In this document: positions 361 through 48,966 of the stretch, piece by piece
Layout of the letters: every line of letters begins with the position of its first letter
How positions within the stretch are numbered: the first letter of the stretch is position 1
Notes under the pieces: model-generated
Database searches by the model: none
Told to the model about the DNA's origin: nothing
What the model saw: only the letters and a program-made list of their open reading frames with translations
Translations under genes and position numbers: made by a program
NCBI RefSeq assembly: GCF_018327705.1
Contig: NZ_BNEM01000001.1
Span: 2,790,001-2,854,000 of the forward strand
Length of the DNA: 64,000 nucleotides
Direction of reading: 5' to 3'
From: Catellatospora sp. TT07R-123
GTDB taxonomy: Bacteria > Actinomycetota > Actinomycetes > Mycobacteriales > Micromonosporaceae

Positions 361-425
361 ATTGACGCTGGCCTATCTAGAGGACGTTTTCTCCAAAACA
401 GTCCTCTAGATAGGCCAGCATCAAT
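361..425. repeat. 65-bp palindromic repeat, copy 1
   Basis: Two 25-bp arms (361-385 and 401-425) match at 24 of 25 positions around a 15-bp centre that itself contains GTTTT/AAAAC. The outer 16 bp are a variant of the shared ATAGACGTTGGCCTAT end. The inner arm reads CTAGAGGAC, as in copy 2. It lies between the convergent 3' ends of pepA and the 461-772 gene. The ten bases right of the arm (GCTATGTGCG) nearly match those beside copy 2 (GCTAAGTGCG). Confidence 0.95.
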
Positions 426-460
426 GCTATGTGCGCTTCGGCGCAAGCGGCCACTACTCG

Positions 461-772
461 CTATGTGCGCTTCTGCCGGGCGTTGTAGTCGCGCATCCGC
501 TGCGGGTAGCCGACGAGTTGGACGTCGTACACCGGCATCGCCAGCCGCTGCGCGAACTGCCGCACCGCGCCGGGGCTGGGCATGTTGCGCCGGGTCCACT
601 CCCCGTCGTACGCGATGAGGATGACCGTGGTGCCCGTCACCGTGGTACGCGGCTCGATGAACGCCTCCACCCCCCGGCGAGATCGTACGAACTGCTCCAG
701 ATGCTGTAGATCTGACGGATTCGCCGGACGGTCGCCCGAGGGACCGCTGCCGCGACGGCGGAACCAGCCCAC
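461..772 (-). CDS. Small conserved actinobacterial protein of unknown function
   Basis: A 103-residue soluble protein starting VGWFRRR and ending in a basic tail. The GTG at 772 was chosen because a strong purine-rich ribosome site (GGAGAAGGAGAGG) lies just upstream on this strand; the open frame extends further upstream but without such a site. It contains the stretch FVRSRRGVEAFIEPRTTVTG and no membrane segment or recognised catalytic motif. The gene diverges from lpdA and I recall similar small proteins in this position in other actinobacteria, but I do not know a function. A 14-bp direct repeat (GCTATGTGCGCTTC at 426-439 and 460-473) overlaps its 3' end. Confidence 0.75.
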   Translation of the reverse strand: MGWFRRRGSGPSGDRPANPSDLQHLEQFVRSRRGVEAFIEPRTTVTGTTVILIAYDGEWTRRNMPSPGAVRQFAQRLAMPVYDVQLVGYPQRMRDYNARQKRT

Positions 773-968
773 TGTGCCTCTCCTTCTCCGCGACGGCGTC
801 GGAGTGAACCTACCGATGGGACACAAGACTAGCCAGACGTGTCCTTCAGCACCTCGGTGCACCGCAGCGCTGTCGGCAGTGACAAGATGGCCGGTGGTGG
901 GCTGAGCACACGCTGGCGCGGCCCGCCCCTGGGCCTCACAGTGGCAATGACGCGACCTTGGAGCGATC

Positions 969-2345
969 GTGAGCGACACCTTTGACGTAGTCATCCTCGG
1001 CGGCGGTAGCGGCGGTTACGCCACCGCGCTGCGAGCGGCACAGCTGGGCCTGTCCGTCGCGCTGATCGAGAAGGACAAGCTGGGCGGCACCTGCCTGCAC
1101 CGGGGCTGCGTGCCCACCAAGGCGCTGCTGCACGCCGGCGAGGTCGCCGACCACACCCGCGACGCGGGCCACGTCGGCATCAAGGCCGAGCTGATCGAGA
1201 TCGACATGGCCGGCGTGAACGCGTACAAGGACGGCGTCGTCGCCGGCCTGTACAAGGGCCTCCAGGGCCTGATCAAGGCCGCCAAGGTCACCTACGTCGA
1301 GGGCACCGGCACCCTGGTCGCGCCGAACGCCGTCGAGGTGAACGGGCAGCGCTACACCGGCCGCAACATCGTGCTGGCCACCGGGTCGTACTCCAAGAGC
1401 CTGCCCGGCCTGGAGCTGGACGGCGAGAAGGTCATGGCCAGCGAGCACGCGCTCGTGCTGGACCGGGTGCCCGCCTCCGCGATCGTGCTGGGCGGCGGCG
1501 TCATCGGCGTCGAGTTCGCCAGCGCGTGGAAGTCGCTGGGCGCCGACGTGACCATCATCGAGGCGCTGCCGCGCCTGGTCGCCGCCGAGGACCCGGACAT
1601 CTCCAAGCAGCTGGAGCGCACCTTCCGCAAGCGCGGCATCAACTTCAAGGTCGGCAAGCCGTTCGAGAAGGTCGAGAAGACCGACACCGGCGTCAAGGTG
1701 ACCATCGCCGGCGGCGACACGCTCGAGGCCGAGCTGCTGCTGGTCGCGGTGGGCCGCGGCCCGGCGACCGCCAACTGCGGCTACGAGGCCCAGGGCGTCA
1801 CCATGGAGCGCGGCTTCGTGCTGACCGACGAGCGCCTGCGCACCAACCTCCCCAACGTGTACGCCGTCGGCGACATCGTGCCCGGCCTCCAGCTGGCCCA
1901 CCGCGGCTTCGCCCAGGGCATCTTCGTGGCCGAGGAGATCGCGGGCCTCAACCCCGCCCCGGTCGTCGAGTCGGGCATCCCGCGCGTGACCTACACCGAC
2001 CCCGAGATCGCGTCGGTGGGCCTCACCGAGGCGCAGGCCAAGGAGAAGCTGGGCGCCGAGAACGTCGAGTCGTACAACTACAACCTCGGCGGCAACGGCA
2101 AGAGCAAGATCCTCAACACCCAGGGCTTCGTCAAGCTGGTGCGCCAGAAGGACGGCCCGGTCGTGGGCATCCACATGATCGGCGCCCGGATGGGCGAGCA
2201 GGTCGGCGAGGCTTCGCTGATCGTGAACTGGGAGGCCTTCCCGGCCGAGGTCGCGCAGCTCATCCACGCCCACCCGACTCAGAACGAGGCGCTGGGCGAG
2301 GCTCACCTGGCCCTGGCGGGCAAGCCGCTGCACGCGCACAACTGA
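969..2345 (+). CDS. lpdA: Dihydrolipoyl dehydrogenase (E3)
   Basis: A 458-residue flavoprotein that reoxidises dihydrolipoamide on E2 using NAD+. The N-terminal FAD fold [14 protein letters not shown] is followed by the redox disulfide motif [13 protein letters not shown] near residue 40. A second nucleotide fold ([13 protein letters not shown], about residue 175) binds NAD. The C-terminal interface domain ends with [14 protein letters not shown], which carries the catalytic His-Glu pair. The length is normal for the family. The GTG start at 969 has TTGGAG a few bases upstream. The E2 gene follows 64 bp downstream in the same direction, so the two are probably co-transcribed, and this E3 would serve the pyruvate and 2-oxoglutarate dehydrogenases. 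Confidence 0.97.
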
Positions 2346-2409
2346 GCGATTAAGCTCGCCTCGTCCTATTCCATACTGCGGATCTGCATCAACTGAGGAG
2401 TCTGAAGCA

Positions 2410-4146: not shown

Positions 4147-4157
4147 AGCCACCGTCA

Positions 4158-4195
4158 GCGCAGGGCGTCCCGGCCTCGGCCGGGGCGCCCTGCGC
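4158..4195 (+). terminator. Strong hairpin after the E2 gene
   Basis: GCGCAGGGCGTCCCGGCC pairs with the matching right arm ending CGCCCTGCGC across a very short loop, 11 bp after the E2 stop. There is no clear T-run, as is common for actinobacterial terminators. Confidence 0.7.
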
Positions 4196-4274
4196 CGTCT
4201 CCGGCACCCGGCCGACCGGCCGAACCGGGCGGTGCCTGCTCCGCGCGGCGCCGCCCCTCGGGCATGATTGTCGT

Positions 4275-5177
4275 ATGCGGATCGTGGTGGCGGGAGCCTC
4301 GGGCTTCCTCGGACAGCCCTTGCTGGCGACGTTGCAGGCACACGGCCACGAGGTCGTCCAACTGGTACGCCGCCCGGCCGGGCATCCGTCGGAGCGCCAG
4401 TGGGATCCGGCCGGGCCGATCCGGCTGCCGGACGGCACCGACGCCGTGGTCAACCTGTGCGGGGTCGGCGTGGGCGACCGCCGCTGGACCGAGCAGTACC
4501 AGGCGCTGATCCTGTCCAGCCGGATCGTGCCGACCGCGACCCTGGCCCGGGCCGTGGCCGAGCAGCGCATCCCGCTGCTGGTCAACGCGTCGGGGGTGGG
4601 CTACTACGGCGACACCGGCGACCGCGAGGTGACCGAGTCGTCCCCGGCCGGGGACGACTTCCTGGCCGAGGTGTCGCAGCACTGGGAGCGAGCGACCGGC
4701 CCCGCCTCCGACGCCGGGGCCCGGGTGGTGCTGCTGCGCACCGGCTACCCGCTGCACCGCGACGGCGGGTTCCTGAAGGCCCAGCTGGTGCCGTTCAAGA
4801 TGGGCGTGGGCGGGCGGCTGGGCAGCGGGCGGCAGTGGGTGCCGTGGATCTCGCTGGCCGACTGGCTGGGCGCGGCGCTGCACGTGCTCGGCGACGACCG
4901 CATCGACGGCCCCGTCAACATGGTCGGCCCCGAGCCCGTGACCAACACCCAGTTCACCAAGGCGTTCGGCGCCGAGCTGCACCGTCCCACCCTGCTGCCC
5001 ATCCCCAAGGCCGCCCTGAAGATGCTGTACGGCGAGTTCGGCAACGAGGCCTTCCGCAGCCTGCGGGTGCTGCCGACGGTGCTCAAGGAGACGGCGTACC
5101 CGTACCAGCACCGCACCCTGTCCCTGGCGCTGCGCGCCGCCCTGACCGACCCCCTGCCCACCTCCGTCCCGCGGTGA
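4275..5177 (+). CDS. TIGR01777 family NAD(P)-binding epimerase-like protein
   Basis: A 300-residue extended short-chain dehydrogenase-like protein. The Rossmann motif VAGASGFLGQP is at the N-terminus, followed by NLCGVGVGDRRW and NASGVGYYGDTGDREVTE, both typical of the YfcH/SDR39U1 family. The C-terminal 50 residues (RSLRVLPTVLKE onward) match the DUF1731 tail. The substrate is unknown in the family. The gene corresponds in position to M. tuberculosis Rv2216, directly after the E2 gene, as I recall that locus. A hairpin between the two suggests it has its own promoter. It converges with the polyprenyl synthase gene. Confidence 0.9.
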   Translation: MRIVVAGASGFLGQPLLATLQAHGHEVVQLVRRPAGHPSERQWDPAGPIRLPDGTDAVVNLCGVGVGDRRWTEQYQALILSSRIVPTATLARAVAEQRIPLLVNASGVGYYGDTGDREVTESSPAGDDFLAEVSQHWERATGPASDAGARVVLLRTGYPLHRDGGFLKAQLVPFKMGVGGRLGSGRQWVPWISLADWLGAALHVLGDDRIDGPVNMVGPEPVTNTQFTKAFGAELHRPTLLPIPKAALKMLYGEFGNEAFRSLRVLPTVLKETAYPYQHRTLSLALRAALTDPLPTSVPR

Positions 5178-5184
5178 GCGCCGC

Positions 5185-5205
5185 GGCCGCGCAGGGTGCG
5201 CGGCC
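5185..5205. terminator. Hairpin between convergent genes
   Basis: GGCCGCGCA and TGCGCGGCC are perfect 9-bp arms around GGG in the 43-bp gap between two convergent stops, so it could end transcription from both sides. Confidence 0.6.
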
Positions 5206-5220
5206 GGGCGCCGGTCGGGC

Positions 5221-6369: not shown

Positions 6370-6397
6370 GGCCGGCTCCTCTCCGGCTGGGCGCCCG

Positions 6398-6427
6398 AGT
6401 ACAGCGCTACCAACTTGACTTAGTCAA
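6398..6427 (-). promoter_or_regulatory. Promoter with palindromic operator for the prenyl synthase
   Basis: On the minus strand TTGACT (6427-6422) and TGTACT (6403-6398) are separated by 18 bp. The -35 is part of a perfect 13-bp palindrome TTGACTAAGTCAA, so a dimeric regulator bound there would block RNA polymerase. The rest of the 210-bp gap (6370-6580) holds a short palindrome CCACTC/GAGTGG at 6478-6493 and TTCATCGATGAA near 6502. Confidence 0.5.
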
Positions 6428-6531
6428 TCATATAGCAAGTTGCATCAATGCATACATGACACTGAACCTCAGCCTGTCCACTCACGCGAGTGGCCCTCTC
6501 ATTCATCGATGAAACGGGCCCGGACGTTACG

Positions 6532-6562: not shown

Positions 6563-6580
6563 ACGCGACGGTCGCGCCGT

Positions 6581-6976: not shown

Positions 6977-6990
6977 GGACTTTCCTCTCT

Positions 6991-13485: not shown

Positions 13486-14139
13486 GTGACCAGCACTGCG
13501 ATCCCCACGCTCGCCGTACGCCGCGCGGGCACCGTCGACTACCTGACCGCCTGGGACGAGCAGCGCCGCCTGCACGAGGGCGTCGTGGCGGGCACCGAGC
13601 CCGACACCGTGCTGCTGCTGGAGCACCCGAGCGTCTACACCGCCGGCAAGCTCACCGAACCCTGGGAACGACCGTTCGACGGCACCCCGGTCGTCGACGT
13701 CGACCGCGGCGGCAAGATCACCTGGCACGGGCCGGGCCAGATCGTCGGGTACCCCATCGTCAAGCTGCCCGTCATCCGCGGCGGCCTGGCCGACGTCGTG
13801 GCGCACGTACGCCGGACCGAGCAGATGCTCATCGACGTCTGCACCGAACTCGGCCTGGCCACCGAGCGGGTCAAGGGCCGGTCCGGGGTGTGGGTGCGCG
13901 CCGACGAGCGCGGCCCCGACCGCAAGGTCGCCGCGATCGGCATCCGCGTCGCGCGCGGCGTCAGCCTCCACGGCTTCGCCCTCAACTGCAACCCCGACCT
14001 GACCTGGTACGACCGCATCGTCCCGTGCGGCATCAAGGACGCCTCGGTGACCTCGCTGACGGCCGAACTCGGCCGCGACGTGACGGTCGACGAGGTCCTC
14101 CCCATCGTCGAACACCACCTCCCCGCCATCCTCGGCTGA
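13486..14139 (+). CDS. lipB: Lipoyl(octanoyl) transferase
   Basis: A 217-residue enzyme that moves the octanoyl group from acyl carrier protein to the lipoyl domains of E2 and related proteins. The family block [18 protein letters not shown] and the active-site motif [13 protein letters not shown], with its catalytic Cys and Lys, are intact. The GTG at 13486 gives the expected N-terminus. Together with lipA at 16 kb it makes the lipoyl cofactor needed by the E2 at 2.4 kb. In most actinobacteria lipB and lipA are adjacent; here the AspRS gene, on the opposite strand, is inserted between them. Confidence 0.96.
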
Positions 14140-14218: not shown

Positions 14219-14283
14219 ATAGACGCTGGCCTATCTAGAGGACATTTTCAAAGAATCCGTCTTCTAGATAGGCCAGCGTCGAT
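14219..14283. repeat. 65-bp palindromic repeat, copy 2
   Basis: Arms 14219-14243 and 14259-14283 match at 23 of 25 positions around a 15-bp centre. Inner arm CTAGAGGAC/GTCTTCTAG as in copy 1. Left flank CCGTTTTC resembles the extended arm of copy 3. It lies between convergent lipB and the AspRS gene. The next 130 bp to the AspRS stop show only GC-rich sequence with no gene. Confidence 0.95.
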
Positions 14284-14416: not shown

Positions 14417-15685
14417 TCAGGGCGTGACGCGGTTGAGGTCGCGCGGGAAGGCGGTGACCTCGCGGATGTTGGGGGCGCCGGTGATGCGCGCCGTGAAGCG
14501 CTCCAGCCCGATGGCGAAGCCGCCGTGCGGAGGCATGCCGTGCCGGAATGCCTGGAGGTACGACTCGTACGCCGCCGGGCTCTCGCCGTGCGCCGCCAGC
14601 GCCGCGACATAGTCGCTGTACCGGTGCAGCCGCTGACCGCCGGTCACCATCTCCAGACCCCGGAACAGCAGGTCGAAGCTGTTGGACCAGCGCGGGTCGC
14701 CCGGTTCGGGGTGGGTGTAGAACGGCCGCTTGACCATCGGATACCCGGTGACGAACACGAACTCGCTGCCGTGCTCGCGCACCGCCCAGTCCCCGATCGC
14801 CCGCTCGTGCGCGGGCGCCAGGTCCGGCTCGTCCTCCGGCGCGCCCGCGATCTTCAGCGCCTCACTGAAGTGCAGGGCCGGGATCTCGGCCGGGACCTCG
14901 GGCAGGTTCAGCTCGAAGCCCAGCTCGCCGACGCGGCCGACCATCCCGGCCACCACCTCGCGCAGCACCGCCATCACGTCCCGGTGGTCGCCGACGAACC
15001 CCAGCTCCGCGTCGAGCGACGTGTACTGGGCCAGGTGCCGCGTGGTGTCGCTGGGCTCGGCCCGGAACACCGGCCCTACCTCGTACACCCGCTCGAAGAC
15101 GCCGACCATCATCTGCTTGTAGAACTGCGGCGACTGGGCCAGGTAGGCCGGGCGGCCGAAGTAGTCGATCGCGAAGACGTTGGCGCCGGACTCGGTCGCG
15201 GTCGCGGTGATCTTCGGCGTGTGGATCTCGGTGAAGCCGAGGGAGTCCAGCGTCCGGCGGAACCCGCCCGTGGCGGCGGCGGCGACCCGCAGCCCGCGCG
15301 AGCGGGACGGGTGGCGCAGCGACACCGGCGCGTGGTCGAGCTGACTGGGCAGGCCCGCGGTCAGCACCGGCCGGTACAGGTCGAACGGCGGCGCCTGCGC
15401 GGGCTCGCCGAGCAGCCGTACGCCCACCTCGGTGAGCTCGACCCCGCCGGGAGCCGCCGGGTTGGCGGTCACCGTGCCCTCGACGGCGACGACGGTCTCC
15501 TCGGGCAGCGTCTCGACCAGCTCGCGCAGCCCGGGTTCGGCGATGACGGCCTGGCTCAGTCCTGCGGCGTCGCGCACGATCAGGAAGGCGACCGATTTGA
15601 GCAGCCGGCGGCGATGGATCCAGCCGGCGATGGTGATCCGTGCGCCCACGTGCGCGGGCAGCTCAGCGGAAAGGATGCGTTGCAT
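14417..15685 (-). CDS. aspS: Archaeal-type aspartyl-tRNA synthetase
   Basis: A 422-residue class IIb synthetase charging tRNA with aspartate. The N-terminal OB fold contains ITIAGWIHRRRLL. Motif 2 is VGPVFRAEPSDTTRHLAQYT and motif 3 is GGFAIGLERFTARI, ending FPRDLNRVTP. The protein is about 160 residues shorter than bacterial AspRS because it lacks the GAD insertion, as in archaeal and non-discriminating AspRS. It may therefore also charge tRNA-Asn for conversion by GatCAB, or be a second AspRS. GGAGGT precedes the ATG and is part of the T-box sequestrator, so translation is probably controlled by tRNA charging. Confidence 0.88.
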   Translation of the reverse strand: MQRILSAELPAHVGARITIAGWIHRRRLLKSVAFLIVRDAAGLSQAVIAEPGLRELVETLPEETVVAVEGTVTANPAAPGGVELTEVGVRLLGEPAQAPPFDLYRPVLTAGLPSQLDHAPVSLRHPSRSRGLRVAAAATGGFRRTLDSLGFTEIHTPKITATATESGANVFAIDYFGRPAYLAQSPQFYKQMMVGVFERVYEVGPVFRAEPSDTTRHLAQYTSLDAELGFVGDHRDVMAVLREVVAGMVGRVGELGFELNLPEVPAEIPALHFSEALKIAGAPEDEPDLAPAHERAIGDWAVREHGSEFVFVTGYPMVKRPFYTHPEPGDPRWSNSFDLLFRGLEMVTGGQRLHRYSDYVAALAAHGESPAAYESYLQAFRHGMPPHGGFAIGLERFTARITGAPNIREVTAFPRDLNRVTP

Positions 15686-18377: not shown

Positions 18378-19628
18378 ATGACCACCGCCACCCTCGCCCC
18401 CGCCCCGGCCACCACCCCGGCCCGCCCCGCCCACCGCGAACCCGCCTACCTGCGCTACGTCACGGGTCAGGCCGTCTCCGTCCTCGGCGACCAGGTCTGG
18501 TACGTCGCGCTGTCGTACACCGCCGTCCAGCTCGCCGACCCGGCCACCGCCGGTGCCGTCCTGGCCGTCTCCTCGGTGCCGCGGCTGTTGCTGCTGCTGT
18601 TCGGCGGCGCGTTCGTCGACCGGTACGGCCCCCGCCGCCTCATGATCGGCAGCGACCTGGCCCGGGGCGCGATCGCGCTGACCACCGCCGCCATCGCGCT
18701 CGCCCAGCCGAGCATCACCCTGCTGGTGCTGGTCGCGCTGGCGTTCGGCGTCGCCGACGCGCTGTTCCTGCCCGCCGCGGGCACGATGCCGCCGCGCCTG
18801 CTCGCCCCGGCGCAGCTCACCGGCGGGCTGGCCCTGTCCGGCCTGGCCGCGCGCCTGGCGCTCACGCTGGGCGCCCCGCTGGGCGGCCTGCTGCTGCCGC
18901 TCGGCGGCCTGCCGCTGGCCTGCCTGGTCAACGCGGCCACCTTCGCCGTATCGGTGTTCGCGCTCTGGTCGGTGCGCCCCGCGCCCGCCCCGGCCGCCGC
19001 CGCCCGTACACCGCTGGCCGCCTCGATCCGCGACGGCCTGCGGCACCTGGCGGGCCACCCGGTCCTGCGCAGCACGCTCGGGGTGTCCCTGCTGGTCAAC
19101 GTGGGCTTCGTCGGACCGATGAACGTCGGCCTGGCCCTGGTCGCCGACGACCGGGGCTGGGGCGCAGGCGGCATCGGGGCCATGCTCGCCGGATTCGGCG
19201 CCGGCGCCGCGGTGGGCAGCCTGGCCATGCTGCGGGTACGCCCGAAGCGCCGCCTCGGCCCGGTCCTGGCCGCCGCCGCGGCCCTACAGGGGGCTGCGGT
19301 GTTCTCCGTCGCGCTGGCCCCGGCGGCGGGGTGGGCGGTGGCCGCCACGACCGTCGTCGGGCTGACCAGCGGGCCGCTCGGGGTGCTGCTGTCGGCGCTG
19401 GTGCAGGGGCACACGGCCGACACCCACCGGGGGCGGATCGCCAGTGTGAATACGCTGGCCAGCCTGGGGGTCACCCCGCTGGCGATCGCGGCGGTCGGCG
19501 CTGCGGCGGGCACGTTCGGGACGGTGGCGACGTTCGCGGGCAGCGCGTCACTGGAGCTGGTGGCGGCGGCCCTGTGCGTCGCGGTCCCCGCCCTGCGGGG
19601 CGCCACCCTGACCGGCGCAGCCGCCTGA
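18378..19628 (+). CDS. MFS transporter, drug-efflux type
   Basis: A 416-residue protein with twelve predicted membrane segments. The MFS motif A variant GGAFVDRYGPRRLMIGSDLARG lies between TM2 and TM3 (about residue 75). The fold resembles the EntS/MFS_3 exporters. The ATG at 18378 has GGAG upstream; the frame is open further 5' but overlaps the regulator gene. Co-transcription with the ArsR-like regulator suggests export of the compound sensed by it. The pair interrupts the DUF4191-RDD-glnA order that is conserved elsewhere, which points to a later insertion. Confidence 0.9.
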   Translation: MTTATLAPAPATTPARPAHREPAYLRYVTGQAVSVLGDQVWYVALSYTAVQLADPATAGAVLAVSSVPRLLLLLFGGAFVDRYGPRRLMIGSDLARGAIALTTAAIALAQPSITLLVLVALAFGVADALFLPAAGTMPPRLLAPAQLTGGLALSGLAARLALTLGAPLGGLLLPLGGLPLACLVNAATFAVSVFALWSVRPAPAPAAAARTPLAASIRDGLRHLAGHPVLRSTLGVSLLVNVGFVGPMNVGLALVADDRGWGAGGIGAMLAGFGAGAAVGSLAMLRVRPKRRLGPVLAAAAALQGAAVFSVALAPAAGWAVAATTVVGLTSGPLGVLLSALVQGHTADTHRGRIASVNTLASLGVTPLAIAAVGAAAGTFGTVATFAGSASLELVAAALCVAVPALRGATLTGAAA

Positions 19629-19634: not shown

Positions 19635-19716
19635 CGTTTTTCATAGACGTTGGCCTATTACAAAGAGTTGGCACGCCGTCGGGCTCGATGTGATAGGCCA
19701 ACGTCTATGAAAAACG
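19635..19716. repeat. 65-bp palindromic repeat family, copy 3 (extended arms)
   Basis: Perfect 24-bp arms: CGTTTTTCATAGACG plus TTGGCCTAT at 19635-19658, and the complement at 19693-19716, around 34 bp. From ATAG to CTAT it is 66 bp, close to the other copies, but the inner part is no longer self-complementary. It lies between convergent MFS and RDD genes. The 120 bp from 19717 to the RDD stop show no gene. Confidence 0.95.
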
Positions 19717-19837: not shown

Positions 19838-20239
19838 TCAGACTGCGGGGCGGATCAGGGTGCCGGTGATGCGGTCGTGCAGGCCGCGGCGCTCGGCGTC
19901 CAGCGGCAGGGCCGGCAGGACCAGCGCGAGCAGGATGCCGCGGACGGCACCGCGAAGTAGGCCGACCGGCTGACCCGTCTGCTCACCCAGGCAGGTAATC
20001 TTCGCCAGGCGCATGCCGGGCGTCTGGCCGAACAGGCCGACGAAGAAGGTGTATTCGGCGATGAGCACGACAACCGGGGCCCAGGCGTCCACCATCGGAC
20101 GGGCGAACAACCCGGCGACGAGGACACACAGCATCCAGTCGAGCAGCAGGGCGCCGAACCGCCTGGCCAGCGAGGGAACAGCAGGTAGCGAGGCGTCTGT
20201 CACCCGGTGAGCGTACCGCCCGGGTCTGGGGCAGCTCAT
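19838..20239 (-). CDS. RDD family membrane protein
   Basis: A 133-residue protein with three hydrophobic segments. SLARRFGALLLDWMLCVLV carries the Arg-Asp pair of the RDD family, and FGQTPGMRLAKITCL is the conserved second block. Its position beside glnA corresponds to Rv2219A of M. tuberculosis. Function is unknown; some RDD proteins are ion or solute transporters. The ATG at 20239 is used here; GTG at 20203 (MTDASLPAV) is an alternative, as neither has a clear ribosome site. It diverges from glnA. Confidence 0.85.
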   Translation of the reverse strand: MSCPRPGRYAHRVTDASLPAVPSLARRFGALLLDWMLCVLVAGLFARPMVDAWAPVVVLIAEYTFFVGLFGQTPGMRLAKITCLGEQTGQPVGLLRGAVRGILLALVLPALPLDAERRGLHDRITGTLIRPAV

Positions 20240-22363: not shown

Positions 22364-22402
22364 AACCGCCTGAAGCCGCAGTCCGACCCGCCCGGGTGAC
22401 CG

Positions 22403-22582
22403 CCGGTCCCGCGCACGCCACCGGTCCCGCGCACGCCACCGGTCCCGCGCACGCCACCGGTCCCGCGCACGCCACCGGACCTGCGCAGGTCGCTGGTCCC
22501 GCGTACGTCGCCGGTCCCGCGTACGTCGCCGGACCTGCGCAGGTCGCCGGACCCGCGTACGTCGCCGGTCCCGCGCAGGTCG
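22403..22582. repeat. 18-bp tandem repeat, ten units
   Basis: Ten head-to-tail 18-bp units. The first four are identical (CCGGTCCCGCGCACGCCA); later ones alternate ...CGCGCAGGTCG and ...CGCGTACGTCG endings. The period is a multiple of three, so all frames stay open (hexapeptides such as ATGPAH), but no start, ribosome site or neighbour supports a protein. Confidence 0.9.
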
Positions 22583-22698
22583 CCGGAGCCGTCGCGTCGC
22601 CGACTCTTCGCCTCGCCGGACCCATCGCGTCGCCAACCGGGCCCGTCTCCGGGCCGGTGACGTCGAAAGGCGACGCCGACCCGATCCGGGCCGGTGGA

Positions 22699-25931: not shown

Positions 25932-25933
25932 TC

Positions 25934-25975
25934 GTCTCTAGGCCTGCTGAAGCGGTCTCTAGGCCTGCTGAAGCG
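25934..25975. repeat. 21-bp tandem duplication at a gene 3' end
   Basis: GTCTCTAGGCCTGCTGAAGCG occurs twice in direct succession. The right copy holds the last codons and stop of the phosphoesterase gene and the left copy lies past the stop, so the duplication did not change the protein. Confidence 0.9.
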
Positions 25976-26750
25976 GGAGCGGCACCACCAGGCAGGCCGC
26001 GCCGAGCGAGATCCCCGTGTCGACGGCCACCGCCAGCCCCTCGGCGTACACGACCGGCGCGCACACCACCTCCGGCGGCACCCCGAACGTCTCCGGAATG
26101 GTGGAGTGCCCGTGCACGATCCGGCTGCCCCCGAGCCGCGACAGCAGGTCGCGAGCGTTGTCGGGGCCGCCGGTGGACAGGAACTCGAAGCGGCGGAACA
26201 GCAGCCGGGTGTTGCGCCCGAACGTCTCCGGGTCGCGGTCGAGCATGATCTGCCGTACCGCGGCGTTGATCTCGTCGATCGTGGCGCCGAACTCCAGGTA
26301 GGCCATGGTGTCGGCGTGGATGAGCAGGTGGTCTTCGACCAGCGCCACCGCGGGCAGGGCGGCCAGCCAGTCCGAGCGCCCGTCGTCGAGCCCGGCCAGG
26401 TCGGCCTCCTGGCCGCCGTTGAGGGCCCAGACGCCGATGATGTCGCGCAGGTCGGTGACGGCGGAGTGGGGCGTGTGCCTGCTGCCGTACAGCAGCATGT
26501 CGTGGTTGCCGATGACGCAGCCGACCTCGCCGCCGACCGCCGCGGCCTCGCCCTGCAGGCGCCGGATCAGGTCGATCACGCCGACCCCGTCCGGGCCCCG
26601 GTCGGTCAGGTCGCCCAGGAACCACAGCCGCGCGTCGCCGCCGGACCAGGCACCGTGCTCGTCGAGCAGGCCTGTCCCGCGCAGCGCCCGGGTCAGTGGC
26701 ACGAGGTGTCCATGCACGTCACCGACCACATACAGCGTCACGGGGCACAC
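25959..26750 (-). CDS. Calcineurin-like metallophosphoesterase
   Basis: A 263-residue phosphoesterase with the full metal-binding series: VGDVHGHL at the start, FLGDLTDRGPDG, VIGNHDMLLYG, and later HADTMAYLEF and GHSTIPETFG. This order matches the ApaH/PrpE group, which cleaves diadenosine tetraphosphate or phosphoproteins. The first start is GTG 26750; GTG 26741 (MTLYVVGDVHG) is equally likely and neither has a ribosome site. It lies between two hairpins, so it is probably a single-gene unit. Confidence 0.85.
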   Translation of the reverse strand: MCPVTLYVVGDVHGHLVPLTRALRGTGLLDEHGAWSGGDARLWFLGDLTDRGPDGVGVIDLIRRLQGEAAAVGGEVGCVIGNHDMLLYGSRHTPHSAVTDLRDIIGVWALNGGQEADLAGLDDGRSDWLAALPAVALVEDHLLIHADTMAYLEFGATIDEINAAVRQIMLDRDPETFGRNTRLLFRRFEFLSTGGPDNARDLLSRLGGSRIVHGHSTIPETFGVPPEVVCAPVVYAEGLAVAVDTGISLGAACLVVPLPLQQA

Positions 26751-26861: not shown

Positions 26862-29846
26862 TCACGCGTGGAACAGTCGCTCGACGGCGGCGCGGGCGCG
26901 ACGGGTGGTCTTGAGGTATTCGTCCAGGAACTCGCCGGGGTCGCCCGCCGCCAGGATGCGGGCCACGCCCGCGAGCTCGTCGCCGTGGCGGGGCAGCTGG
27001 TCGACGGCCCGGCCGCGGATCAGCGTGAGCGCGTTGCGGACCCGGGAGCACAGGGTCCAGGCCGCGTCGAGCACCTCGGCGTCCTCGACCGAGACCAGGT
27101 CGGCCTCGTGCGCGGCACGCAGCGCGACCAGGGTACGGGTGCTGCGCAGGCCCTCGACCTCGTGGCCGTGGCGCAGCTGCCACAGCTGCACCGTCCACTC
27201 GACGTCGGCGATGCCGCCCCGGCCCAGCTTGGTGTGGGTGAGCGGGTCGGCGCCCCGGGGCAGCCGCTCGCTCTCGACCCGTGCCTTGATCCGGCGGATC
27301 TCGGTGATCTGCTCCCGGCGCAGCCCGTCGGCGGGGTAGCGGATCGGATCGACGAGCGCGGTGAACCGGCGCGCCAGGTCGGCATCGCCGGCCACCGGGC
27401 GGGCCCGCAGCAGCGCCTGCGCCTCCCACACCTGCGACCAGGTGGCGTAGTAGCGCTGGTACGCGGCGAGGCTGCGCACCAGCGGGCCCTGGCGGCCCTC
27501 GGGGCGCAGGTCGGCGTCGACGCCCAGCGGCGGGTCGGGCGCCGGGGCCGACAGCAGCGTGCGCAGCTGCTCGGCGATGGCCAGGGCGACGCCGTTGGCC
27601 TCGTCGTCGCGCATGCGACGAGCAGTCGACTCAGTGTCGCGCATGCCGGGGGCGGGCTCGTAGACGAACAGCACGTCGGCGTCGCTGGGATAGCTCAGCT
27701 CGGCGCCGCCGAGGCGGCCCATACCGATGATCGCGAAGCGGAAGTCCGGCGGCGCGCCGACCGCTTGACGAGCCACCGCCAGCGCGGCGCCGAGGGTCGC
27801 GTCGGTGAGGTCGGCCAGGCCCTGTCCCACCTCGAGCACGTCCAGCGGCCTGGCGGGGGCCAGCTCGCCCGCGCCGCTGAGCAGGTCGGCGCTGCCGATG
27901 CGGAACAGCTCGCGGCGGCGCATCGCGCGGACCGCCGCGACGGCCGAGCGCGGGTCGGGGTGGCGGGCCGCGGCGGCGGCCAGGCCGTCGCAGAGCGGTT
28001 CGCGGGCCCGCAGCGCCAGCTCGGTGTCGTCGGCGAGCAGCCGCAGCGCCTCCGGGTCGCGAGTGAGCAGGTCGGTGAGGTAGCGGGAGCTGTCCAGCAC
28101 CCGGCCCAGGCGCAGCGCCACCGGCCCCTCGTCGCGCAGCAGCCGCAGGTACCACGGGGTGCTGCCGAGGGTGTCGGAGACCTGGCGGTAGGCCAGCAGC
28201 CCGGCGTCGGGGTTGGGCGCGTCGGCGAACTCGGCCAGCAGCACCGGCAGCAGCGTCCGCTGGATCGCGGCGGTGCGCGACACCCCGGCGGTCAGCGCCT
28301 CGATATGGCGCAGCGCCCCGGCCGGGTCGGCGTAGCCGAGCAGCTCCAGGCGGCGCCGGGCGCCCTCGGCGCGCAGCGACAGGCCGTCGGCGGGCACCCG
28401 GGCCACGGCCGCCAGCAGCGGGCGGTAGAGCAGCTTGGCGTGCAGGCGGCGCACCTCGGCGGCGTGGGTGACCCAGTCTGCGCGGAACGCCGCCACCGGG
28501 TCGAGCCCGGCGCCCTCGCGGGCGCGTCCCACGCCGAGGGCGGGCTCCTCGCGCCGGTAGTTCATGGCGCGGGCCAGCCAGCGCAGCGCGGCGGTCCCGG
28601 CGGCGCCGTCGTCGGCGGGCACCGTGTGGGTACGCCGCAGCCGCTGCAGTTGCAGCCGGTGCTCGACGTTGCGCAGGAACCGGTACGCCTTGCTCAGCGC
28701 CTCGCCGTCGCCGCGGCCGACGTACCCGCCCGCGACCAGGGCCCGCAGTGCGCGCAGCGAGTTGCCCGAGCGCAGCGACTCGTCGCCGCGGCCGTGCACC
28801 AGTTGCAGCAGCTGCACCGCGAACTCGATGTCGCGCAGGCCGCCCGGCCCGCGCTTGATCTCGCGGTCGACCTCGTTGCGGGGCACCTGGTCGATGATGC
28901 GCCGCCGCATGGCCCGCACGTCCTCGACGGCTTCGGGCCGCTCGGCGGCGTGCCAGACCAGCGGTTGCAGTGCGGCCAGCCACGCCTTGCCCAGCCCCGC
29001 GTCCCCGGCCACCGGACGCGCCTTGAGCAGCGCCTGGAACTCCCAGGTCCGCGCCCAGCGCTTGTAGTACACCAGGTGGCTGGCCAGCGTACGCACCAGC
29101 GGGCCGCGCCCGCCCTCGGGCCGCAGCGCCGCGTCGACCGGCCACGCCACGTGCCCGCAGATCTCCATCAGCGCCGCCGCGACGGTCGTACCGGCGCTGA
29201 GGTCCTCGTCCTCGGCGGCGACGAAGATGACGTCCACGTCGGAGACGTAGTTCAACTCGTCCCCGCCGCACTTGCCCATCGCGATCACGGCCAGCCTCGG
29301 CCGCGTCGGCACCCGCCCCAGCGCGATCCGGTACGCCGCCCGCAGCGTCGCGTCGGCCAGCGCGGTGATCTCGGCCATCGTCGTCTCGACGTCGACCCCG
29401 TCGGCGAGGTCGGCCGCCGCGATCCGCAGCAGCCCCCGCTGGTATCCCAGCCGCAGCGCGGGCACGTCGGCCAGCCCGCTGTGCACCTCGTAGCGCGGCG
29501 GCACCGTGTGAGTGAGCACCCGCCACTGCCCGCTCTGCGCCGCGAGCTGGTCGCCCAGCGCCGACGACGCCCCGAGCACGGTGAGCAGCCGGATGCGCAG
29601 GTCCTCGTCGGCGCCCAGCCGCTCCAGCACCTCGGGGTCGCGCTCCCAGATGCGGTGCAGCTGGCGCAGCGCGAGGTCGGGGTCGGCGGCGCGGCCGAGC
29701 TGCTCCAGGACGAGCGCGCTCTCCTCGTCGACGGGCCGCTGCGCCTCGGGGTCCCACAGGCGCAGCCCGCGCAGCAGCACCACCGGGTCGGGCCCGGTCG
29801 CCCCGAGGGTGAAGCCGAACCGCGCCAGCCTGCCGATGCCCGCCAC
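26862..29846 (-). CDS. glnE: Glutamine synthetase adenylyltransferase / adenylyl-removing enzyme
   Basis: A 994-residue bifunctional enzyme that adenylylates and deadenylylates the conserved tyrosine of GlnA. Two nucleotidyltransferase domains are visible: VIAMGKCGGDELNYVSDVDV (about residue 190) for deadenylylation and AIIGMGRLGGAELSYPSDAD (about residue 710) for adenylylation. Each is followed by a PII-like uridylyltransferase-associated helical domain with RGPGGLRDIEFAVQLLQL and KLGRGGIADVEWTVQLWQL. The GTG at 29846 starts MAGIGRLARFGF. Placing it near glnA is conserved in actinobacteria; here a penicillin acylase and a phosphoesterase are inserted between them. Confidence 0.97.
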   Translation of the reverse strand: MAGIGRLARFGFTLGATGPDPVVLLRGLRLWDPEAQRPVDEESALVLEQLGRAADPDLALRQLHRIWERDPEVLERLGADEDLRIRLLTVLGASSALGDQLAAQSGQWRVLTHTVPPRYEVHSGLADVPALRLGYQRGLLRIAAADLADGVDVETTMAEITALADATLRAAYRIALGRVPTRPRLAVIAMGKCGGDELNYVSDVDVIFVAAEDEDLSAGTTVAAALMEICGHVAWPVDAALRPEGGRGPLVRTLASHLVYYKRWARTWEFQALLKARPVAGDAGLGKAWLAALQPLVWHAAERPEAVEDVRAMRRRIIDQVPRNEVDREIKRGPGGLRDIEFAVQLLQLVHGRGDESLRSGNSLRALRALVAGGYVGRGDGEALSKAYRFLRNVEHRLQLQRLRRTHTVPADDGAAGTAALRWLARAMNYRREEPALGVGRAREGAGLDPVAAFRADWVTHAAEVRRLHAKLLYRPLLAAVARVPADGLSLRAEGARRRLELLGYADPAGALRHIEALTAGVSRTAAIQRTLLPVLLAEFADAPNPDAGLLAYRQVSDTLGSTPWYLRLLRDEGPVALRLGRVLDSSRYLTDLLTRDPEALRLLADDTELALRAREPLCDGLAAAAARHPDPRSAVAAVRAMRRRELFRIGSADLLSGAGELAPARPLDVLEVGQGLADLTDATLGAALAVARQAVGAPPDFRFAIIGMGRLGGAELSYPSDADVLFVYEPAPGMRDTESTARRMRDDEANGVALAIAEQLRTLLSAPAPDPPLGVDADLRPEGRQGPLVRSLAAYQRYYATWSQVWEAQALLRARPVAGDADLARRFTALVDPIRYPADGLRREQITEIRRIKARVESERLPRGADPLTHTKLGRGGIADVEWTVQLWQLRHGHEVEGLRSTRTLVALRAAHEADLVSVEDAEVLDAAWTLCSRVRNALTLIRGRAVDQLPRHGDELAGVARILAAGDPGEFLDEYLKTTRRARAAVERLFHA

Positions 29847-41971: not shown

Positions 41972-41979
41972 GCTGCCCG

Positions 41980-43598: not shown

Positions 43599-43735
43599 GC
43601 GGACACCTTAGGGCCATCTCGGCCGTGCGGCGAGAGGCCCGCTCGCTCGGGCGTTACCCGCCGTTCGGCCAGGTGTACTGTCGATGGGGTCGATCGGTCC
43701 ATGCGCGAACGTCACTGCCGCGCGATGATGTGGCC

Positions 43736-44386: not shown

Positions 44387-44397
44387 GGGGAGCCTGC

Positions 44398-45276: not shown

Positions 45277-45345
45277 CACCCCAGAGTGCCACGCGCCCCG
45301 GCCGGGGAGGGCCGGGGCGCGTGTTTCATACCGCTATCGGGAACG

Positions 45346-46800
45346 CTATCCGATCTTCGCGCCGACGTGGATCGCGATCGCGTCGTGGGCCGCCACGTTG
45401 GCGACGAACCAGCCGTTGGCGTCGACCGTGATCACCGGACCGGTGCAGGCGCTGCCCGTGTAGTCGCCGTGGATGACGTCGCAGTAGCGCCCGGCGGGCA
45501 CGTTCGTGTGGTACGACCGCCCGTTGACCGCGGCGTCCTCGTCGTTGATCGTCAGGTAGCCCTTGCCGTTGCGGCCGAACGCGATGTGGTTGTTGCCGTT
45601 GTCGTACCAGTTGACGACCGTGGTGCCCTTGACCGCGTTGTGGAAGGCGACCATGTTCGCGATGACCTGCCAGCGGTGCTCGCAGCGCCAGCCGCCGGTG
45701 AAGCACGTCGCGTCGTTGGTCTTGCCCGCGGCGTTCGACGGCGGGCCCTGGTCGCGGTTGCTGAACTCGTAGCTGCTCATCACCGCGGGCGACCCGTACG
45801 GCCAGGCCAGCATGAACGCGTTGGCCAGCGCGTAGATCCCGTTGTCCTTGTACGTGAGGATGTCCCCGCCGTCGCGCTGCGTGTCGTGGTTGTCGGTGAA
45901 CACGACCGCCTTGGACGTGGAGATGTAGCCCCACGGCTCACCGAAATTGTTCAGATAGGCGAGCTTCTCGTACCGGAACACCCGGCCCAGGTCCTTGCCG
46001 TACCGGAACTCGTGCACGTCGCCGTTGCCGGTGTACTCCGTCGGCAGGATCGGCTCGCCCGCCCCGAAGATGACCTCCTGCACGAGGTACGCGCTGCGCG
46101 ACAGCTTCGCCTTGATGGCGGCGATGTCGGCGGCGGGCATGTGCTTGCTGGCGTCCAGCCGGAACCCGTCCACGCCGAGGCTCAGCAGGTCGTTGAGGTA
46201 GCCCGCGATCTTGGTGCGGACGTAGTCGCTCTCGGTCTTGAGGTCGGCCAGGTTGGCCAGCTCGCAGTTCTGCACCTCGTACCGGTCGTTGTAGTTGACG
46301 ATGTCGTCGTTGCCGTTGCGGCCGCAGTGGTGGAAGTCCTGCGTCTGGTAGATGCCCGGATACGTGTACGAGGTGTAGGTCGAGCCCGCCCAGCCGGTGC
46401 CCGAGCCGACGCCGGTCATGTGGTTGACCACCGCGTCGACGATCACCTTCACGCCCGCGTTGTGGCAGGTGGTCACCATCGACTGGAACTGCGCCCGGGT
46501 GCCCTTGCGCGACTCGATCCGGTAGCTGACCGGCTGATACGCCACCCACCACTGCTGGCCGGTCGCGTGCTCCTGCGGCGGGGAGACCTGCACGTAGCCG
46601 TAGCCGCGCGGGCCGAGGAAGTTGGTGCACTCGGCGGCGACCGAGGGCCAGTTCCACTCGAAGAGCTGGACGATCACGTCCTTGGTGCCGGACGGGGCGG
46701 CCGCGGCGGGGGCGGCCGCGGTGAGGCCGGTGAGGCCGGTGACGGCGCTCGCGGCCAGGACGGCCGTCAGCGCCAGTGGGAGGAGCCTGCGTCGTCTCAT
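45346..46800 (-). CDS. Secreted alpha-amylase (GH13)
   Basis: A 484-residue exported amylase. A Sec signal peptide of about 35 residues (RRRR, then a long Ala/Leu core, ending AAAA) precedes a GH13 barrel: DAVVNH (about 122), GFRLDASKH with the nucleophile Asp (about 216), the acid Glu in LVQEVIFGAG (about 242) and FTDNHDTQ (about 305). The C-terminal beta domain closes the fold; there is no starch-binding domain. GGAG precedes the ATG. The promoter has a -35/-10 pair with a palindrome at the start site, so expression is probably repressed without maltose-type sugars. Confidence 0.95.
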   Translation of the reverse strand: MRRRRLLPLALTAVLAASAVTGLTGLTAAAPAAAAPSGTKDVIVQLFEWNWPSVAAECTNFLGPRGYGYVQVSPPQEHATGQQWWVAYQPVSYRIESRKGTRAQFQSMVTTCHNAGVKVIVDAVVNHMTGVGSGTGWAGSTYTSYTYPGIYQTQDFHHCGRNGNDDIVNYNDRYEVQNCELANLADLKTESDYVRTKIAGYLNDLLSLGVDGFRLDASKHMPAADIAAIKAKLSRSAYLVQEVIFGAGEPILPTEYTGNGDVHEFRYGKDLGRVFRYEKLAYLNNFGEPWGYISTSKAVVFTDNHDTQRDGGDILTYKDNGIYALANAFMLAWPYGSPAVMSSYEFSNRDQGPPSNAAGKTNDATCFTGGWRCEHRWQVIANMVAFHNAVKGTTVVNWYDNGNNHIAFGRNGKGYLTINDEDAAVNGRSYHTNVPAGRYCDVIHGDYTGSACTGPVITVDANGWFVANVAAHDAIAIHVGAKIG

Positions 46801-46829
46801 GGGGACACTCCATACACGATGGAAACCTG

Positions 46830-46922
46830 GCTGAAATCTTTCAGCAAAGTTACAAGCGGCTTGCCGTCAGGTCAACGTGTAGACAGTGGAATGGCACGCC
46901 ACACGGCTTGAAAGACCTTTCA
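46830..46922 (-). promoter_or_regulatory. Amylase promoter with two TGAAA/TTTCA operators
   Basis: On the minus strand TTGACC (46875-46870) and TAACTT (46852-46847) are 17 bp apart. GCTGAAA-TC-TTTCAGC (46830-46845) covers the predicted start site and TGAAAG-AC-CTTTCA (46909-46922) lies upstream of the -35. A LacI-family sugar repressor is the likely reader. Confidence 0.7.
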
Positions 46923-46970
46923 CCGCACCGGTGACCTCGGCACACCTCGCGCCACCCGACCCCTTCTTCT

Positions 46971-47035
46971 ATAGACGTTGGCCTATCACATCGACTGCAT
47001 CGAGATCGAAGTCGATGTGATAGGCCAACGTCAAT
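46971..47035. repeat. 65-bp palindromic repeat, copy 4
   Basis: Arms 46971-46995 and 47011-47035 match at 24 of 25 around 15 bp. Inner arm CACATCGAC; the central ...AGATCGAA is shared with copy 5. Right flank GGCAAACGG resembles copies 3 and 5. It is upstream of the amylase promoter and downstream of the monooxygenase gene, so here both neighbours point left. Confidence 0.95.
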
Positions 47036-47057
47036 GGCAAACGGGGTGGGGTGAGGG

Positions 47058-47142
47058 GTGGTCAGGGGTGGCGGGTGGTCAGGGGTGGCGGGTGGTCAGG
47101 GGCGGCGGGTGGTCAGGGGCGGCGGGTGGTCAGGGGCGGCGT
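47058..47142. repeat. 17-bp tandem repeat across the monooxygenase stop
   Basis: Five units of GTGGTCAGGGG(T/C)GGCGG. The last codons and stop (47096) of the minus-strand monooxygenase lie inside. Because 17 is not a multiple of three, a change in copy number would alter the protein C-terminus. Confidence 0.9.
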
Positions 47143-48370
47143 AGGAACGGGGCAGGCCGGTCGGGGCGCCTGTCGGCACGCCGGCCGGGGCGGGGCGCGG
47201 TGGGGCGAACGGGGCTGTGCGGGACTGGTCGACGGCGGCGAAGCCGTACTCCAGCATCTGCGCCTCGTACTCCTGCTTGGCCCGCAGCAGCGGCATCGTG
47301 CCGCGCGCCGCGTCGGCGAGCAGGGCGCCCAGCAGGCTCGCGTCGCGTAGCGCGATGTTCGCGCCGTCGCCGCGCCCCGGCGACATGGTGTGGATCGCGT
47401 CGCCGAGCAGCGTCACCGCGGGCTCGCGCCAGAACCCCGTCGGCCGCGCCGAGCTGAGCACCACCGGGAAGGTCGCGGCCACGTCGGCCTCGGCCACGAT
47501 CCGGCGTACGGCCGGATGGAAGCCCGCCGCCGTCCGCACCGCCAGCGCGTGCAGCCCGGCCGCGTCCACGCCGCTGGGCAGGGGCGCGTTCACCGTCATC
47601 GTCCAGGCGAAGCAGTCCGCGACCGGCGTCAGCCGCACGTGCGGGGCGAACCGCGCCACCGCCTCGGCGTACGGCGTGACCGGGCGGCAGGTGGCGGCCG
47701 CGAACGCGCTGCCGTCGGCGGCGGTCACCCGGTTGAAGCTGTCGACCAGCACGTCCGGGGTCGCGGCGAGCAGGTCCGGGGTGAGCGGGGTGCGGCCGTA
47801 CAGGCCCCAGCCCAGGTCGTCGTGCCCGGCGTCGGGCAGCAGCTGGGCGCGCACGGCCGAGCCGGTGCCGTCGGCGCCGACCAGCAGGTCGCCGACGGCG
47901 GCCGAGCCGTCGCCGAAGCGGGCCTCGACCCGCCCGCCGGCGGTGGCCGCATAGCCGCGGCAGGCCCGGCCGAAGTGCACCTGAGGCAGCTCGGCCAGCA
48001 GGATCTCCCGCAGCGTACGCCGGTTGACGCCGAAGCCGCCGTCGGTGGCGGGCGGGATGTCCTTGGCGAACTTCGGCACGAGCTGGTCGTCCAGGAAGGC
48101 CATCAGGCGCGCCTGGCGGATGGCGGTGGCCTGGGCGAGGTCGTACAGGTGGGGCGGCAGGCACTCGCGCAGCGCCTGGGCGCCGGTGCCCTTGAGGCTG
48201 ATGCGGTAGCCCTGGTCGCGGGACTCGGCGGTGGCGTCGCGCTCGTAGACGGCGGCACTGACGCCGCTGCGGTGCAGGCTGTGGGCCAGGCACAGGCCGC
48301 CGAGGCCGGCGCCGGCGATGATCACGTGCAGCGGGTCTCCTCCTCGGGCGGGGATGACGGTGTCGTTCAT
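47096..48370 (-). CDS. FAD-dependent monooxygenase
   Basis: A 424-residue class A aromatic hydroxylase-type flavoprotein. The FAD Rossmann motif VIIAGAGLGGLCLAHSL, the DG motif LLVGADGTGSAVRAQLLP and the GD motif LLGDAIHTMSPGRGDGANIA are intact. The Pro-rich C-terminus (RSYAAPDHPPPLTTRRP) is encoded by a tandem repeat and looks like a recent addition. It diverges from a MarR regulator and three GTCNNGAC palindromes lie between them, so substrate-induced derepression is likely. Related enzymes oxidise antibiotics (tetracycline or rifampicin type) or aromatics. Confidence 0.9.
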   Translation of the reverse strand: MNDTVIPARGGDPLHVIIAGAGLGGLCLAHSLHRSGVSAAVYERDATAESRDQGYRISLKGTGAQALRECLPPHLYDLAQATAIRQARLMAFLDDQLVPKFAKDIPPATDGGFGVNRRTLREILLAELPQVHFGRACRGYAATAGGRVEARFGDGSAAVGDLLVGADGTGSAVRAQLLPDAGHDDLGWGLYGRTPLTPDLLAATPDVLVDSFNRVTAADGSAFAAATCRPVTPYAEAVARFAPHVRLTPVADCFAWTMTVNAPLPSGVDAAGLHALAVRTAAGFHPAVRRIVAEADVAATFPVVLSSARPTGFWREPAVTLLGDAIHTMSPGRGDGANIALRDASLLGALLADAARGTMPLLRAKQEYEAQMLEYGFAAVDQSRTAPFAPPRPAPAGVPTGAPTGLPRSYAAPDHPPPLTTRRP

Positions 48371-48392
48371 GCCGGTGAGACTAACGGCATAC

Positions 48393-48434
48393 CTGTCACG
48401 ACAGCAACCGTCATGACAGCAGCCGTCGCGACAG
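48393..48434. promoter_or_regulatory. Triple GTCNNGAC operator between MarR and monooxygenase genes
   Basis: CTGTCACGACAG, CCGTCATGACAG and CCGTCGCGACAG start at 48393, 48408 and 48423, exactly 15 bp apart, within the 77-bp divergent gap. The third ends 13 bp before the MarR ATG. Confidence 0.75.
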
Positions 48435-48447
48435 CTAGCATCAGGTC

Positions 48448-48888
48448 ATGGACAAGCGCCTACCCGACTTCGCGGCCCTCGGCGGCGGCTCGATGCTGCA
48501 CCAGGTCTCCCGGGAGCTCACCAATCTGCTGGACCGGCAGTTCGCCGAGCACGGCCTGACGACGCAGCAGGCAGCCCTGCTCATGCACGCGGCGGGCGGG
48601 CCGGTGACCCCGAGCAGCCTGCGGGCCGACCTCGGCACCGACACCGCGGGCATGACCCGGCTGGTCGACCGGCTGGAGAGCAAGGGCCTGCTGCGGCGCT
48701 CCCCGCACGCGGAGGACCGGCGGGCGGTGGTGATCGAGCTGACCCCGGCCGGGCGGGCGCTGCTGCCGCTGGTGCCGCCGATCTTCGGGCGTACGGTCGG
48801 ACGGATGTTCGCCGACTTCGCCCCCGCCGAGATGGCCCAGTTCAACGCCCTGCTCCGCCGGGCGCACGCGAACCTCACCATGCCCTGA
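48448..48888 (+). CDS. MarR family regulator
   Basis: A 146-residue winged-helix regulator. The recognition region is VTPSSLRADLGTDTAGMTRL and the wing is LLRRSPHAEDRRAVVIELT, both typical of MarR. Dimerisation helices flank it. Divergent from the FAD monooxygenase, with the triple palindrome in between, it probably represses both genes until an aromatic ligand binds. Confidence 0.93.
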   Translation: MDKRLPDFAALGGGSMLHQVSRELTNLLDRQFAEHGLTTQQAALLMHAAGGPVTPSSLRADLGTDTAGMTRLVDRLESKGLLRRSPHAEDRRAVVIELTPAGRALLPLVPPIFGRTVGRMFADFAPAEMAQFNALLRRAHANLTMP

Positions 48889-48901
48889 CACCCCGCCCTC
48901 A

Positions 48902-48966
48902 ATAGACGTTGGCCTATGACATCGACTCCACGCAGATCGAAGTCGACGTCATAGGCCAACGTCTAT
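48902..48966. repeat. 65-bp palindromic repeat, copy 5
   Basis: Arms 48902-48926 and 48942-48966 match at 24 of 25 around 15 bp. Inner arm GACATCGAC differs from copy 4 by one base, and the matching right arm has changed as well (GTCGACGTC). Right flank GACAAAGCGG. It lies between convergent MarR and mannosyltransferase genes. Confidence 0.95.

Follow-up and report, generated by a model that had tools for sequence, protein, structure and literature searches.

Five Palindromes in a Catellatospora Window

The window analyzed here, a whole stretch of 64,000 nucleotides (C1:2790001-2854000 in the 9.17-Mb genome of Catellatospora sp. TT07R-123, G000; 72.5% GC), contains five palindromes of 65 to 66 bp. 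Genes were called by an in-house codon-usage script. Copy 1 (361–425, core 364–422) lies between the end of a peptidase M17 gene (1–345, plus strand) and a convergent gene at 461–670 on the minus strand. Degenerate extensions on its left (352–360, family consensus CCGYYTTNN) and right (426–434), both placed by the flank consensus of 154 copies, make it a unit of ∼83 bp. Three further copies also stand between convergent genes: copy 2 (14219–14283, core 14222–14280) between a lipoyl ligase-domain gene (13486–14139, plus) and a class II tRNA synthetase-domain gene (14417–15685, minus), copy 3 (19643–19708, core 19646–19705, 60 bp) between an MFS gene (18378–19628, plus) and an RDD gene (19838–20134, minus), and copy 5 (48902–48966, core 48905–48963) between a MarR-family gene (48448–48888, plus) and a glycosyltransferase gene (49032–49772, minus). 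Copy 4 (46971–47035, core 46974–47032) is located between two minus-strand genes, 60 bp off the 3′ end of a FAD-binding gene (47096–48370) and upstream of an amylase-domain gene (45346–46800). A tandem array of 5.5 copies of a 17-bp unit (47048–47141) lies 12 bp from copy 4.

An earlier note on this DNA had described the five palindromes, four of them between convergent genes, and and they stand at the coordinates that it gave; the gene calls agree on their placement. The 13-mer GACGYTGGCCTAT, with up to two mismatches allowed, has 12 matches in the window, against 2.2 expected from shuffles, and 10 of these are the ten arms. Every copy folds better than all 200 of its shuffles, with z scores of −9.0 to −11.5 as RNA and −8.1 to −11.7 as DNA. 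Copy 3 is indeed the exception with imperfect inner arms; its outer stem is prolonged by CGTTTTTC/GAAAAACG. The end reported as invariant, GACGTTGG, is not so: copies 1 and 2, of class GACGCTGG/CTAGAG, carry GACGCTGG in its place, and copy 1 starts with ATTGACG and has CATC within its right arm. In the relative G016, the orthologue of copy 1 has a single outer-arm mismatch and that of copy 2 a compensated outer change (GACGGTGG/CCACCGTC). At the place in G016 that matches copy 4 (L269), the gene at 47096–48370 is missing and a copy with two outer-arm mismatches stands at a divergent junction.

A Dispersed Family Restricted to One Genus in the Genomes Sampled

How far does this family reach beyond the window? 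A search of the genome and its relatives, as the earlier note had proposed, returned additional copies. The five palindromes do form a family, but a far larger one, with 87 forward matches in G000 to a pattern of the two outer arms (none to the reversed control pattern) plus further copies with an altered arm. Of the places in G000 that match a 14-mer, twenty outside the listed exact copies were inspected: in 17 the partner arm of the copy is altered, one holds an exact copy, one a lone arm, and one a broken half adjoining a full copy. Copies with exact outer arms number 75 in G016, 43 in G100, and 32 in G133, and ten congeneric genomes hold 1 to 95 apiece. Since G051 and G071 have one exact copy each, no site as such is indispensable. 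Among the matches listed in position order, none lies in G000:C1:1-1380000, which may be a terminus region or an accessory one.

A sample of 300 genomes from the same family contained 11 that match, which are all 11 Catellatospora genomes of that sample; the palindrome with exact outer arms was not found in the 289 genomes of other genera. In a class sample of 296 genomes, the window's genome matched and the other 295 did not. A scan of named genomes gave at least 120 stretches with the element, all Catellatospora among the matches listed. Viral contigs yielded no exact match to the element, and plasmids no match to copy 5. By the family and class samples, then, this is an abundant dispersed palindrome restricted to the genus Catellatospora in the genomes sampled. 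We found no description of such a Catellatospora family in the literature, judged by titles, abstracts, and passages, and four arm strings had no match in the paper texts searched.

The copies analyzed below number 194: 127 from named Catellatospora stretches (among the matches listed), 51 from the window's genome, and 16 from other relatives.

Anatomy of the Element

In 154 copies of 59 bp, each half of the core runs from a nearly invariant outer arm (ATnGACGYTGGCCTAT) through six bases that vary but are mostly paired, then GA, to the loop. The outer 13 bp (positions 0–12) were fixed by the search pattern, so that conservation of the outer arm is overstated there; A−3, T−2, G19, and A20, which the pattern did not select, keep the consensus pair in 93, 91, 95, and 98% of the 154 copies, respectively. 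Position 4 alternates between C:G and T:A. At positions 13–18 there are 40 different words, paired in 78–90% of copies, followed by the conserved G19 and A20; pairing fades at positions 21–22. GATC occurs in the loop of 126 out of 184 copies, for the most part at one of two mirror-image positions. Length is 59 bp in 184 of the 194 copies, and folding gives stem stabilities of −45 to −56 kcal/mol.

Across the family the left flank is pyrimidine/T-rich and the right flank A-rich, in line with the T before and the A after the stem that the earlier note had seen. The left flank follows the consensus CCGYYTTNNATN, the right flank the complement of it, and these degenerate flanks bring the palindrome to ∼83 bp (154 copies), in keeping with the longer ancestral unit that had been suspected.

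Location behind Genes and Near-Exclusion of Other Hairpins

Where do the copies lie relative to genes? None of the 194 is genic: 111 stand at convergent junctions, 70 at tandem junctions, 6 at divergent junctions, and 7 at sequence edges. Tandem copies lie close to the upstream gene, at a median of 48.5 bp past its stop, with 67 of 70 no more than 120 bp from that stop and 63 nearer to it than to the next start. Divergent spacers held only 3 of 145 placed copies in a first sample, although ∼45 were expected from spacer length. Decay of copies at divergent junctions was seen in one case, in G016; we make no claim of it, because the other mismatched divergent copies come from places chosen for having no listed partner.

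The copies thus form a multi-copy, extragenic, REP-like family at gene 3′ ends, as had been proposed. attC sites, too, have conserved ends and a variable but paired interior, a plan that the element resembles, and a structured regulatory RNA could also be imagined. We regard an attC-type recombination site or a structured RNA as very improbable, since the copies are dispersed, usually one per junction, behind genes, and since no Rfam family reaches the cut-off in the window except one tRNA. A 3′-end bias is general among stem-loops and REPs (passages of PMC1590033 and PMC3733652), so position alone is little proof.

Do these junctions carry other hairpins as well? When the element was cut out and its flanks joined, another hairpin (score of at least 12) was found at 13 of 104 convergent junctions with the element, against 94 of 153 without it (Fisher P = 7e-16), and at 8 of 69 tandem junctions against 177 of 625 (Fisher P = 0.002); the junctions include orthologues and overlap in origin, so these P values are optimistic. 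Masking the element instead gave another hairpin at 12 of 105 convergent and 6 of 69 tandem junctions. Tandem spacers show the exclusion, as do convergent spacers no longer than 160 bp. It is not seen in the few long convergent spacers (4/6 with the element vs. 21/26 without at 160–300 bp; 2/5 vs. 2/9 above 300 bp). Position together with this near-exclusion of other hairpins is the main evidence for a role at the 3′ end.

The element is not a canonical intrinsic terminator, because its GC-rich hairpin is followed by a tail that is not U-rich. At least three U's in the 8 nt after the stem occur in 3 of 68 tandem copies, and a looser measure of U content is reached by 20 of the 68; among other 3′ hairpins of tandem junctions it is reached by 108 of 211. 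The earlier note had taken the T before and the A after the stem to argue against a terminator. This argument is weak, because Streptomyces clavuligerus has 3′ ends at U-lacking hairpins—according to passages of PMC8269248, strong hairpins without a U-rich tail account for 353 of its 1,427 mapped 3′ ends—and because the junctions with the element mostly have no other hairpin.

Turnover at Orthologous Junctions

Orthologous junctions differ in the hairpin family that they carry. All 11 genomes keep the MFS/RDD junction of copy 3. G000 and G016 have the element there, whereas G125, G100, G129, G087, and G109 have a long palindrome unrelated to it; in G133, G118, G051, and G071 the hairpin is short or a long one is absent. 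Downstream of the lipoyl ligase-domain gene of copy 2, G000 and G016 again carry the element, while G133, G125, G129, G051, and G071 carry long palindromes of other sequence and G087, G109, G118, and G100 structures that are weaker; the next gene differs except in G016 and G133. An epimerase-domain gene (Pfam) at 4275–5177 is followed by the element in six of six genomes of one clade (G118, G125, G100, G129, G087, and G109) and by a different palindrome in G051 and G071; in G000, G016, and G133 it has another neighbor, and no family member is there. At the junction of the genes at 25959–26741 and 26862–29846, the element is found in G125, G118, and G109 and is absent in G129, G100, and G087. 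A clean empty site was sought at this last junction and not obtained, the spacers turning over too fast and being too diverged for a footprint. Overall, 64 of the 127 copies from named stretches (among the matches listed) have an orthologous copy elsewhere in the sample.

Could the family be simply a selfish or neutral MITE/REP that survives only behind genes, where it is harmless, and that inserts into or displaces terminators, leaving no other hairpins? A dispersed family in a REP-like position, present or absent at orthologous junctions and with only one exact copy in two genomes, would fit such an element, as would termini that parse as TA-GACG...CGTC-TA. Yet sites and orientation are common to species whose spacers are barely alignable (the copies being still recognizable by their arms), and tandem copies keep close to the upstream stop. 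In a test for target-site duplication only the palindromic TA clearly exceeds shuffles, and no transposase link was found, PF01797 being unmatched in the copy-rich G000, G016, G100, and G133 and also in G051. We therefore consider a purely selfish or neutral element unlikely. RAYT mobilization as a present-day cause finds no support in those four copy-rich genomes, PF01797 having matches in 6 of the 11 genomes and in none of the four. No larger element with the same ends was seen in 1.6 Mb, where 10 arms without an exact partner each have a near-match partner close by, and inspection by eye of the matches listed for 131 14-mer places in G000 revealed no distant opposed pair of arms.

Covariation of the Inner Arms

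Do the two inner arms change together? The six best-covarying of 1,891 column pairs are all stem pairs, in line with the covariation that the earlier note had read from a few copies. In an R-scape-like test none of them is individually significant, each having an E value of 0.05 to 1.8 under a tree-based null; the tree was built from the same columns, so we take the test as conservative.

We also compared orthologous copies, reducing 96 pairs to 86 by dropping 5 in which not both copies were 59 bp and 5 that repeated one place; the pairs are not independent, and some places are represented twice, under separate locus names (e.g., L138/L180 and L155/L176). Within the stem, both sides differ with pairing kept 233 times, one side differs 172 times, and both sides differ otherwise 63 times. 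In the 60 pairs whose flanks are at least 90% identical, 159 of 198 two-sided differences are compensated, and loop orientation is the same in 43, reversed in 9, and undecided in 8. Compensated differences and shared loop orientation indicate that these sites come from common descent and that both arms of the inner stem change at them. One orthologous pair (L019 4523 and L120 4671) has the same left flank and an apparently inverted interior. Inner-arm identity between orthologues is 0.52 and 0.48, against 0.47 and 0.46 between random pairs of the family. An identity so little above random would be unexpected under slow compensatory evolution, and copying between arms or between copies could account for it. 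Loop identity is 0.51 against 0.33, a gap for which orientation accounts in part because the random pairs are of mixed orientation.

Does this pairing bear the mark of selection on RNA? Mismatches in the sense strand of tandem copies comprise 32 G:U and 27 A:C (25 and 18 as counted by the hairpin finder), and no G:U excess indicative of RNA-level selection was seen. Other tandem 3′ hairpins at the same loci (n = 175, leaving out 30 hairpins of other long-palindrome families with 14 and 6) have 56 G:U and 15 A:C, a different ratio (Fisher P = 0.004 for 32:27 and 0.02 for 25:18), which means that the comparison is able to detect RNA-level constraint. RNA-level selection is thus not the evident cause of inner-arm covariation. 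Of the selection for pairing that had been proposed, the leading place of stem pairs stands, and pairing as RNA is less supported, given those E values and A:C mismatches nearly as frequent as G:U.

The lack of a G:U preference, the near-invariant outer arm, the uniform length, and a loop orientation that has only a weak association with transcription (20:36, P = 0.04) would all suit a site that acts as DNA. A protein would read the outer arms, and the palindrome would act as a DNA hairpin or cruciform, for example, holding gyrase or a nucleoid protein against the positive supercoils of convergent transcription. However, near-exclusion of ordinary hairpins, which do bear an RNA signature, points to a shared 3′-end role, and at −45 to −56 kcal/mol the stem may be stable enough to absorb any one mismatch, which limits the power of the G:U test. 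On this evidence we think a DNA-level site quite unlikely.

Relation to Known Repeats and Proposed Role

In the broad sense the element is REP-like, being a multi-copy extragenic palindrome downstream of genes. It is not a GTAG/CGTC REP, as its core is 59 bp, GACG and CGTC pair together, and the copy-rich G000, G016, G100, and G133 have no match to the RAYT domain. MITEs are short, multi-copy elements with terminal inverted repeats and no coding capacity. The Catellatospora element is alike in all of this and differs in that an autonomous partner was not found in the 1.6 Mb and the listed 14-mer places covered, nor a target duplication beyond TA, and in that many of its sites are common to species.

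Tagged REPs, as passages of Di Nocera et al. (2013; PMC3733652) describe them, are likewise extragenic palindromes scattered over the genome, which lie downstream of genes and for the most part at convergent or unidirectional junctions; there are several families per organism, some species- or genus-restricted, and the CGTC class has no dedicated transposase. They are 20–40 bp long with an unpaired GTAG/CGTC tag at one end and stems of 5–13 bp, whereas the Catellatospora element has a 59-bp core, arms of more than 20 bp, and GACG/CGTC inside the paired stem. The phylum lists in those passages do not name Actinobacteria for tagged REPs, and untagged REP-like repeats in Mycobacterium tuberculosis are mentioned. 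The putative REPs of RepRanger (PMC12306157) are also palindromic and without U-tails, with genome-wide counts that include three Actinomycetota genomes; passages of that text name no Micromonosporaceae or Streptomyces (the terms Streptomyces, Micromonospora, and Mycobacter each count zero) and give no account of the Catellatospora family. I-shaped terminators, or structured ends lacking U's (passages of PMC8269248), share a strong 3′-end hairpin without a U-tract in a GC-rich actinomycete. In those passages they are not a repeated sequence family, whereas the outer arm here is nearly invariant across dozens of copies. The high-stability intergenic stem-loops of Petrillo et al. (2006; passages of PMC1590033) are similarly concentrated just past stop codons and between convergent genes, and the element differs from them in being one repeated family with covarying inner arms.

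What, then, might keep this repeat behind genes? On balance we favor a genus-restricted dispersed palindrome of the REP/MITE kind that is retained at gene 3′ ends and does the job of a 3′ hairpin there. The 59-bp core, ∼83 bp with its degenerate flanks, would be kept behind genes because it replaces their 3′ hairpin, and it would end or cap transcripts, from both sides where genes converge. The means may be a stem of very high stability that lacks a U-tract and probably acts with Rho and/or by blocking 3′–5′ RNases. Since a terminator needs only pairing, this role leaves the conserved sequence of the outer arm unexplained; a putative protein may read that arm, either in the spread of the element or at its hairpin. 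The inner arms could stay palindromic via selection for pairing or via copying from arm to arm (hairpin-templated repair or conversion). Both the terminator action and the mode of spread are what we infer from sequence comparison. An abundant family seems here to replace ordinary gene-ending hairpins, with an arm of which one part is constant in sequence and another is preserved chiefly as pairing. Such a split arm lets many natural sites test selection for pairing in DNA against that in RNA, and the family offers a view of how terminators arise, how they are replaced, and whether dispersed repeats supply them.

Other Palindrome Families

A hairpin census of the sampled loci revealed further repeated long palindromes behind genes. 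In G003, which belongs to a different genus of the family, a 56-bp palindrome (TGATCAAGAGGTTT ... AAACCTCTTGATCA) occurs in 34 copies; it is found in 5 of 121 genomes searched. Its 31 rows, three of which repeat the same places, comprise 25 convergent and 5 tandem junctions and 1 edge; its inner bases also vary in pairs, and GATC is present in 12 of 39 loops. At L244–L248 and L271–L286 this family has a similar plan, sometimes with two or three copies per junction. The G003 and Catellatospora families share a similar plan with different arms, and a common origin is conceivable.

Might they be parts of something wider? As a tentative conjecture that we rate as somewhat unlikely, a Micromonosporaceae superfamily of 56–59 bp palindromes would have genus-specific outer arms read as DNA by a putative cognate protein, a short inner stem whose two arms are rewritten jointly, and a loop in which GATC is often present. 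Its families would displace one another as 3′-end hairpins of the same genes, so that a pool of dispersed palindromes would both supply terminators and renew them.

The window itself holds a different long palindrome at 58080–58132, with TTGCCGGGCAATCGGG arms, which represents a second repeated family behind genes in several Catellatospora loci. Further 3′ hairpins, starting at ∼11101, 26819, and 62479, are of the GGGCACCTTCT type, at a convergent junction, and of the CACACCTCATG / CACACGTCCTG types, with similar ones in other loci. Short tandem arrays lie at 22365–22605 (18-bp unit) and 58705–58823 (15-bp unit).
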